Positions 37,571 through 40,447 of a stretch of 64,000 bases of DNA are shown piece after piece; position 1 is the stretch's first letter; every line of letters begins with the position of its first letter. The DNA comes from Methylophilaceae bacterium (GTDB taxonomy: Bacteria; Pseudomonadota; Gammaproteobacteria; Burkholderiales; Methylophilaceae): NCBI GenBank assembly GCA_028351715.1, contig JAOMKM010000001.1, positions 49,365 through 113,364 of the forward strand, in the 5' to 3' direction. A model generated the notes under the pieces. It did not search any database. It was not told the DNA's origin and was given only the letters and a program-made list of their open reading frames with translations. Position numbers and translations under genes: made by a program.

Positions 37571-38737
37571 TTATTTATTAAGGTAATTTAAGTCGCTCTT
37601 AATGTCTTGAATATCTTCTAATCCAACTGCAATCCTAATCAAATTATCTGATATACCTACATCAGCCCTCTCTAAAACAGTTAATCTAGAATGTGTTGTT
37701 GAATTTGGGTGAGTAATAGTAGATTTAGTATCGCCAAGATTGGCTGTAATTGAAAGCATCCTAGTGGAATCAATTGTTTTCCATGCTTCAGGTTTCCCAC
37801 CTTTTACTTCAAATGAAACAATTCCCCCACCAGATGATTGTTGCTTGATGGCTAAATCATATTGAGGATGAGACTTAAGACCTGGATAATATACCTTCAA
37901 AACCTTTTTTTGTGCTTCGAGCCATAAAGCTAGTTCAAGGGCATTATCTGAATGAGCATTCATACGTAAACTTAATGTTTCTAAACCTTTTAAGAATACC
38001 CATGCATTAAATGCGCTCATCGTAGGGCCGGCAGACCGTAAAAATGAATAGACTTCGTTCATGTCTTTTTTATTACCTAATACTGCCCCACCTACACATC
38101 TGCCCTGTCCATCAATATATTTTGTTGCAGAATGAATAATAATATCAGCACCAAATAAAATAGGCTTTTGGAGTGCTGGGGTGCAAAAGCAATTATCAAC
38201 AACTAACTTAATATTCGATCCATGAGCTAATTCGGCCAGAGATTTTATATCACAAATCTCAGTGAGTGGATTTGATGGAGTTTCAACAAAAAATAGCTTT
38301 GTATTTTTCTTTATCGCTTCAGACCACTCATCTAGATCAGTAAAGTTAACGTACGTAACATCTAAACCCCATCGACGTAAAATATTATTTAATAGCTGAA
38401 CCGACGTACCAAAAATACTTTTTGATATCACTACATGATCACCACTACTGCATAACGACATAAAGCAGGCAAGAATAGCGGCCATTCCACTAGAAGTAGC
38501 TACGCATTTTTCAGCACCTTCAAGAGCAGCAAGGCGCTCCTCAAACATTGTAACCGATGGATTCGTAAATCTAGAATAGACGTTTCCCATCTTAGAGTTT
38601 GAAAATCGATCAGAAGCTTCCTTAGCATTCTTAAAAACAAAGCTTGAAGTTAAGAATAATGCCTCAGAATGCTCACCCTCTCCTGTCCTTATTGTTCCAG
38701 CTCTTATGGCGTCCGTATTAAATTTATTTTTTTTCAT
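37571..38737 (-). CDS. metZ: O-succinylhomoserine sulfhydrylase
   Basis: Cys/Met metabolism PLP family; VYSRFTNPSVTMFEERLAALEGAEKCVATSSGMAAI; SATKYIDGQGRCVGG; purF-metZ synteny. Confidence 0.93.
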   Translation of the reverse strand: MKKNKFNTDAIRAGTIRTGEGEHSEALFLTSSFVFKNAKEASDRFSNSKMGNVYSRFTNPSVTMFEERLAALEGAEKCVATSSGMAAILACFMSLCSSGDHVVISKSIFGTSVQLLNNILRRWGLDVTYVNFTDLDEWSEAIKKNTKLFFVETPSNPLTEICDIKSLAELAHGSNIKLVVDNCFCTPALQKPILFGADIIIHSATKYIDGQGRCVGGAVLGNKKDMNEVYSFLRSAGPTMSAFNAWVFLKGLETLSLRMNAHSDNALELALWLEAQKKVLKVYYPGLKSHPQYDLAIKQQSSGGGIVSFEVKGGKPEAWKTIDSTRMLSITANLGDTKSTITHPNSTTHSRLTVLERADVGISDNLIRIAVGLEDIQDIKSDLNYLNK

Positions 38738-38772: not shown

Positions 38773-38803
38773 CAAAAAAAAACCCGCTCAGCTATGACGG
38801 GTT
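38773..38803 (-). terminator. Intrinsic terminator in the metZ leader
   Basis: Minus strand AACCCG-tcatagctgag-CGGGTTTTTTTTT, within the untranslated leader. Confidence 0.85.
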
Positions 38804-38810
38804 ATCATCG

Positions 38811-38865
38811 CTTTAGCTGTTATTTTTATAGCGCCCGCAAGCTGTTACTTTCAAATCGGCGCTTA
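38811..38865 (-). ncRNA. SAM-II/SAM-V-like riboswitch aptamer upstream of metZ
   Basis: Minus strand AGCGCC-GATTTGAAAGTAACAGCTTGCG-GGCGCT-ATAAAAATAACAGCTAAAG: P1 helix, GAUUU loop start and 3' AUAAA...AGCUAAA segment match the SAM-II/SAM-V pseudoknot core. Confidence 0.8.
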
Positions 38866-38871
38866 GCATAT

Positions 38872-38900
38872 ATTATGATGAAAACTATACACTAGGTCAA
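38872..38900 (-). promoter_or_regulatory. sigma70-like promoter for the metZ leader
   Basis: TTGACC (38900-38895), 17 bp, CATAAT (38877-38872), which would start transcription near 38865, the 5' edge of the aptamer. Confidence 0.65.
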
Positions 38901-38911
38901 TATATATAAAC

Positions 38912-40447
38912 TTACGCATGCTCCTGACCAACCTCCTCAGTTGGCGAGAAATCAAGCTGCGCTGAAGGGTTTGACTGATTTTCATTGATCGTATTTTCCG
39001 ATCTTCTCAATTCAATTTTATTCAAATAAGCCTTATCAATATCTCCAGTAACATATTTTCCATCGAAACATGAGCAATCAAATTCCTTAAGTGAAGAATT
39101 TTCTATGGAGATATTAGATTTTAAATCTTCCAGGCATTGATAAATTAAACCATCAGCACCAATTTCATCGCTAATCTCATTTTCATTTCGTCCGTGAGCA
39201 ATTAACTCATTAAGCGTTGGCATGTCGATACCATAAACATTTGCAAATTTTACAGGTGGCGCCGCTGAAGCAAAAAATACTTTTCTAGCTCCAGCGTCAC
39301 GAGCCATCTGGACAATTTCTCTTGAGGTTGTTCCTCTAACAATAGAATCATCAATTAATAAAACGTTTTTATCCTTAAATTCAAATTTAATAGGATTTAA
39401 TTTTTGACGGACAGATTTTTTTCTAAGCGCTTGACCTGGCATAATGAAAGTTCTACCTACATATCTATTCTTAATAAATCCTTCACGAAAATCTACCTTT
39501 AGATTTTTTGCAACCTGTTGTGCGCATGGTCTACTTGTATCTGGTATTGGAATAACGACATCTATCTTAATGTCGCCCCATTCCTTTTTAATTTTTTTTG
39601 CTAATGTTTCTCCCATATTTAGCCTTGTTTGGTATACAGAAACCCCATCAATCATTGAGTCTGGTCTAGCTAGATAAACATATTCAAAAATACATGAGCT
39701 TTTTAATGCCGCAGGAACACATTTTTTTGAATAAAAATTACCGTCTAGATCAATGAAAATTGCTTCACCAGGCTCAACATCTCTTAGCAACTTAAAACCC
39801 AGAACATCAAGAGCAACGCTTTCAGATGCAACCATATATTCAGGACCGTCCTGCGTTTCATTAATACCAATTACTAACGGCCTAATACCGTGGGAATCTC
39901 GAAAAGCAACTAAACCAAAATTAGCGACCATTGAGACTACTGCGTAGGCTCCCTGGCACCTTTTAAAAACAGTGGTAACTGCATCAAAAATAATACCAGA
40001 AGTTAATACATTTTTTTGGGTTGCTTGTTCAATTGAGTGAGCTAATACATTTAATAACACCTCGGAATCTGAATTGGTATTAATATGTCTAAGGTCTTGC
40101 TTAAATATATCTTCTTTCAATCGATCAGCATTTGTTAAATTACCGTTATGACCAAGAACAATTCCATAAGGAGAATTTACATAAAGAGGTTGTGATTCAG
40201 CGTTTGATGAAGAACCTGCAGTTGGGTACCTTACATGGCCAATTCCAGCATTTCCTACAAGATTTCTCATATGCCTTGTATGGAAGACATCTTTTACATA
40301 ACCATTATTTTTACGCATGTAAAAACGACCATTATCAGAAGTAACGATTCCAGCTGCATCTTGACCTCGATGTTGAAGAACTAATAAGCCGTCATAGAGC
40401 ATCTGATTGACTGGTTTGTTAGCTACAATACCTATAATTCCACACAT
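38912..40447 (-). CDS. purF: Amidophosphoribosyltransferase
   Basis: MCGIIGIV N-terminal Cys; LQHRGQDAAGI; VLLIDDSIVRGTTSREIVQMARDAGA. Confidence 0.98.
   Translation of the reverse strand: MCGIIGIVANKPVNQMLYDGLLVLQHRGQDAAGIVTSDNGRFYMRKNNGYVKDVFHTRHMRNLVGNAGIGHVRYPTAGSSSNAESQPLYVNSPYGIVLGHNGNLTNADRLKEDIFKQDLRHINTNSDSEVLLNVLAHSIEQATQKNVLTSGIIFDAVTTVFKRCQGAYAVVSMVANFGLVAFRDSHGIRPLVIGINETQDGPEYMVASESVALDVLGFKLLRDVEPGEAIFIDLDGNFYSKKCVPAALKSSCIFEYVYLARPDSMIDGVSVYQTRLNMGETLAKKIKKEWGDIKIDVVIPIPDTSRPCAQQVAKNLKVDFREGFIKNRYVGRTFIMPGQALRKKSVRQKLNPIKFEFKDKNVLLIDDSIVRGTTSREIVQMARDAGARKVFFASAAPPVKFANVYGIDMPTLNELIAHGRNENEISDEIGADGLIYQCLEDLKSNISIENSSLKEFDCSCFDGKYVTGDIDKAYLNKIELRRSENTINENQSNPSAQLDFSPTEEVGQEHA

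Follow-up and report, generated by a model that had tools for sequence, protein, structure and literature searches.

In a Methylophilaceae genome, a terminator-like hairpin, a riboswitch-like fold and a promoter lie together in the leader that separates purF from metZ, and the locus raises the question of what kind of RNA this is and how it would control metZ. We analyzed it within a window, by which we mean the whole stretch of 64,000 nucleotides under study, taken from an assembly of 873 kb in 31 contigs whose family is placed in the Betaproteobacteria by NCBI. An initial annotation had located a promoter, a P1 helix, an aptamer core, a terminator and an antiterminator here, and reading the minus strand of this intergenic leader we find all five in the places it gave (Table 1). 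The end of the −10 box is 8 nt from P1, and transcription would start just ahead of that helix. The folding energy of the leader as a whole is ordinary compared with shuffled sequences (z = −0.66), and phage records searched with the leader as a DNA query gave no match.

Our reading is that the element is, very probably, a terminator-coupled SAM-II riboswitch by which SAM is predicted to turn metZ off. The proposed class membership rests on homology, conservation and covariation in P1, and from the sequences we infer that the RNA binds SAM, that it switches in this direction and that transcription terminates there in vivo. By itself such an element is an ordinary SAM-II.

Table 1. Features of the purF–metZ leader and its flanking genes, in window coordinates (SAM-II numbering of 2QWY)
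Feature	Position	Strand	Basis
purF, upstream neighbour	38912..40447	-	TIGR01134; conserved synteny
Promoter, sigma-70-type, TTGACC-N17-CATAAT	38872..38900	-	10/12 consensus matches; kept in genus relatives
RF00521 SAM_alpha (SAM-II) match	38792..38872	-	25.8 bits, gathering 36
P1 5' strand AGCGCC	38858..38863	-	sequence; P1 covaries, 88 distinct sequences
GAUUUG, comprising G8, A9 and pocket U10-U12	38852..38857	-	conservation; contacts from PMC3764141
CAGCUUGC, comprising P2a C16 and P2b 5' strand U20 U21 G22 C23	38837..38844	-	family alignment
P1 3' strand GGCGCU	38830..38835	-	P1 covariation
Antiterminator 5' strand CAGCUA, overlapping the predicted SAM-binding strand	38814..38819	-	folding, complementarity
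GCUAAAGCG, comprising P2b 3' strand G42-A47 (ligand-contacting) and 48-50 of P2a	38809..38817	-	family alignment
Intrinsic terminator AACCCG-UCA-UAGC-UGA-G-CGGGUU and nine-U tract	38774..38803	-	sequence, folding; arms AACCCG 38803-38798 and CGGGUU 38786-38781, U-tract reaching 38774
Antiterminator 3' strand UAGCUG, within terminator loop/stem	38789..38794	-	folding, complementarity
metZ, O-succinylhomoserine sulfhydrylase, controlled gene	37571..38737	-	NCBIfam NF006003, 667 bits, cut-off 522

Assignment to the SAM-II class

The best Rfam match of the element is RF00521, which in a local scan aligns over its full model. Genome-wide, RF00521 yields no other match at E ≤ 0.001 (E = 3.5e-4 for this one). 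Its 25.8 bits here fall below the gathering score of 36 bits. That score is the cut-off set by the curators and corresponds to no structural feature. Scanning the whole 64-kb window with Rfam at gathering scores returned nothing. The threshold accounts for this: other members of the order have homologues scoring up to 52.5 bits, and RF00521 scores over the family run in an unbroken range from there down to the value in the window. The homologues that pass the gathering score have the same core. Weak matches to Trp_leader, RF_site6 and other Rfam families are far below cut-off and were taken as chance.

Numbered as in the crystal structure 2QWY, the core reads C7 followed by G8 A9 U10 U11 U12, then U20 U21 G22 C23, and finally G42 C43 U44 A45 A46 A47. 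The window carries, letter by letter, all 13 nucleotides of the SAM-II pocket (U10–U12, U20, U21, G22, C23 and G42–A47; list and contacts from PMC3764141), and in a family alignment of 90 elements (88 distinct sequences) 12 of the 13 positions never vary, while U10 is present in 89. These data also bear on the ligand. Riboswitch classes can include variants of altered specificity, and the aptamer fold could be right for a ligand other than SAM, such as SAH, methionine or another SAM relative. We consider this improbable, since the nucleotides that contact SAM in the pocket are kept, including the invariant sulfonium readers U11 and U21, and since the controlled genes are methionine and SAM genes.

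The same alignment supports the P1 helix of the predicted SAM-II aptamer. In P1, 99.5% of cells are paired and four of the five pairs show changes on both sides; the covariation score of the whole structure was equalled by none of 500 shuffles. The strands of P2b, UUGC and GCUAAA, are complementary in 88/88 distinct sequences and invariant, so they allow no covariation test, and the pseudoknot rests on identity with the solved SAM-II. This UUGC:GCUAAA pairing is the conserved register of the predicted pseudoknot throughout the relatives. The initial annotation had instead proposed an AGCU:AGCU pseudoknot, which is possible in the window sequence but had to be abandoned: its fourth pair fails in 29 of the 88 distinct relatives, without covariation. 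For P2a, C16–G50 is found in 89/90 elements and the longer alpha-type helix is absent, and because G24 faces a freely varying base 41, P2b is not extended.

The aptamer had been labelled SAM-II/SAM-V-like, and the two classes do have a common core and ligand pocket (PMC6061858). SAM-V is the translational sister class, and some metZ leaders in the genus show SAM-V-like traits, namely a P3 hairpin and overlap with the ribosome-binding site (RBS). We nevertheless think it most unlikely that the element itself is a SAM-V. Of the two models that the initial annotation had suggested for cmsearch, RF00521 matches, if below gathering, but for RF01826 neither the local Rfam scan nor a search at E ≤ 1 yields a match at the element, its weak matches lying elsewhere in the same genome. 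The element lacks both P3 and the P2b extension; it is coupled to a terminator, shows no Shine–Dalgarno overlap and has its start codon 36 nt past the U-tract. The SAM-II half of the label is therefore retained, on the RF00521 match and the 13 pocket nucleotides, and the SAM-V half dropped.

Terminator and antiterminator

A simple terminator scan missed the hairpin of the window because of its bulge, and folding found it. The first reading had given the terminator as two arms around 11 open bases; the hairpin itself stands, but UCA and UGA pair and lengthen the stem, so that only a UAGC tetraloop and a single bulged G stay unpaired, at −9.7 kcal/mol. Terminators occur downstream of 132 of the 163 unique elements with a median of −16.8 kcal/mol, and the bulged terminator of the window is weaker than this family median.

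Terminator coupling had been presented as a useful variant, but by the literature it is not an unusual one: most SAM-II riboswitches are transcriptional (PMC6061858), and termination is the predicted mode of the SAM-II of Sinorhizobium (S.) meliloti metZ, a prediction supported by Northern blots that show a leader RNA of ~100 nt (PMC9373788). Our element resembles SAM-II (RF00521) and the S. meliloti metZ case in its core, its pocket nucleotides, the gene and the predicted terminator-coupled OFF switch. It differs from the RF00521 consensus in being betaproteobacterial, in scoring below gathering and in having a short P2a rather than the alpha-type GGCC/GGCC.

The usual antiterminator of the family pairs GCUAAA with UUUAGC, and in the window CAGCUA pairs with UAGCUG. 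We compared GCUAAA and the three preceding bases with the 5' arm or loop of the terminator in the 132 elements. Helices of at least 6 bp were found in 75/132, as against 17/132 with the strand reversed, and the mean uninterrupted helix was 5.55 bp compared with 3.79 bp for shuffled terminators and 3.86 bp for the reversed strand. Base 41, which adjoins GCUAAA, covaries weakly with its antiterminator partner (27/77 Watson–Crick, shuffled mean 18.8, p = 0.019, a value that is too small because the sequences are related). Among the pairings that the initial annotation expected to be conserved in relatives, P1 covaries and antiterminator complementarity is frequent, and only AGCU:AGCU finds no support.

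Folding of the window RNA gives nearly equal energies for the full platform with antiterminator (−10.4 kcal/mol) and for the terminator (−9.7 kcal/mol). As the RNA grows, the antiterminator forms first (−9.3 kcal/mol), and when the GCUAAA strand is masked the terminator becomes the minimum fold. The following switch is predicted. With little SAM, CAGCUA, which overlaps the ligand-contacting GCUAAA, would pair with UAGCUG of the terminator, and RNA polymerase would continue into metZ. Once SAM occupies the triplex of the P1/P2b pseudoknot, GCUAAA would be held, the terminator AACCCGUCA-UAGC-UGAgCGGGUU would form before the U-tract, and metZ would be off. Because SAM binding uses GCUAAA, it should free the terminator. 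The coupling, the use of the SAM-binding strand by the antiterminator and the predicted sign of control were already part of the first reading, and folding and family complementarity agree with them.

A terminator with an alternative hairpin may also point to attenuation that depends on a protein or the ribosome, or the leader may hold a constitutive terminator between purF and metZ, in either case without a ligand-binding RNA; a weak Trp_leader match (17.8 bits, gathering 41) could be cited in the same sense. We give such explanations hardly any credence, as a separate promoter lies between purF and the element, its core outside the terminator is near-invariant in 88 distinct sequences from several gene contexts, and relatives of the RBS type keep the aptamer without the terminator.

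A beta/gamma-proteobacterial branch and its probable earlier sightings

The element that we assign to SAM-II recurs in the leaders of 29 out of 30 metZ orthologues compared from the genus and family. A covariance model, R1, was built from 12 of these leaders, that of the window among them, and gives rough E-values; its match to the window was for that reason not counted as evidence, and the RF00521 match is the independent one. R1 matches 146/200 genomes of the order, covering 86/109 genera (E ≤ 0.01), and 87/185 genomes of the class (E ≤ 0.001). The independent RF00521 model lands at the same places, yet passes gathering in only 36/200 and 17/185 genomes, respectively. The element belongs to a large beta/gamma-proteobacterial branch of predicted SAM-II riboswitches that is mostly missed by Rfam's cut-off, and as the 36 genomes against 146 for the branch model illustrate, the current RF00521 threshold hides most such SAM-II outside the alphaproteobacteria. 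The downstream gene is metZ in 95 of the 163 unique elements and metX, metK, metH, metF, metE or metN in others, with examples checked by NCBIfam.

Two further arrangements were observed. At nine loci (L052, L064, L067, L110, L111, L113, L127, L128 and L137) SAM-II precedes a small ORF and a transporter of the MATE family, mostly as tandem pairs, with a different core, GAUUUAAUCGACAACUUGC...GCUAAAGCGUCGC, in the second copy. At L037 and L042, SAM-II precedes metK, and a SAH riboswitch (RF01057) lies within ~1.4 kb.

Members of this branch appear to have been noticed before under other names. Leyn et al. (2014; PMC4239095) describe a novel beta-proteobacterial metXZ element with six conserved regions and a terminator–antiterminator, which precedes metZ in three Methylophilales, and give SAM_alpha as occurring only in Rhizobiales and Rhodobacterales. 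Compared by description, that element is like ours in lying in metX and metZ leaders of beta-proteobacteria and in combining a pseudoknot with a terminator and antiterminator; it is left there as novel, with ligand and class unassigned, in contrast to the SAM-II assignment made here. Judged by the taxa, gene and architecture given there, our family is almost certainly the metXZ element.

In Khoo et al. (2012; PMC3521395), Bp2_Cand287 is reported beside purF, metZ and metX, and a role as a cis-acting element of methionine metabolism is proposed. The corresponding Burkholderia sRNA family Bp2_287 (RF02424) resembles our element in its purF–metZ, metX locus, and the Burkholderia-type form (L061), which also has a purF-like ORF upstream, carries a P3 hairpin insert. 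RF02424 passes its cut-off in one genome (L061:1500-1703). There the match lies antisense to a SAM-II core that is accompanied by a P3 hairpin, a terminator and metZ. Nine weaker RF02424 matches (L062-L070) likewise lie opposite R1 matches, making 10/10 compared, which suggests that RF02424 was modelled on the wrong strand. In the open-licence literature we found no paper that links SAM-II with either RF02424 or the metXZ element.

We consider it likely that a single beta/gamma-proteobacterial SAM-II branch, found in roughly three of every four genomes of the order, comprises both the metXZ element and the RF02424 'sRNA', and that within the genus the transcriptional SAM-II of metZ has been replaced by translational SAM-V-like aptamers, one lineage having a tandem as a sister or intermediate state. 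What would be new is the unification of the two as SAM-II and, at metZ, a change of expression platform inside a single genus that includes a tandem form. The orphan methionine element of 2014 and the Burkholderia 'sRNA' of 2012 would thereby gain a predicted ligand and mechanism.

Proposed platform switching at metZ

Three types of metZ leader occur in the genus: some have a terminator only, some are purely translational, and some are tandem. In the tandem leaders (L006, L007, L008 and L010) a terminator-coupled SAM-II is followed, just ahead of metZ, by a SAM-V-like aptamer of the RBS type with a P3 hairpin (GACAUUUGUC). Their order of parts is like that of the tandem SAM-II/SAM-V of Ca. Pelagibacter bhmT (PMC2704228, PMC11508383), which belongs to another bacterial class and another gene; the window, unlike that tandem, has the single terminator form.

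Of the two translational clades on a tree of MetZ proteins, one groups with the tandem clade as its sister (100/99) and the other stands apart. Terminator-bearing and RBS-only leaders are separated by two changes on this tree, counts that are blind to gain versus loss. A path from terminator through tandem to translation is suggested. The genus offers a natural series, at one gene, between control of termination and control of translation.

A second model, R2, whose seeds include the second aptamer of the tandem leaders and whose E-values are again rough, matches the neighbouring translational clade weakly. Further R2 matches lie at other loci of the genus, including two in the genome that contains the window, and a search of viral contigs for the SAM-V-like pattern found none. 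The two copies lie outside the window (G000:C2) and form a near-identical SAM-V-like pair (L182:845-908 and L182:1070-1133), and a small ORF of unknown function follows each copy. L183 has a similar pair ~1 kb from a tmRNA gene.
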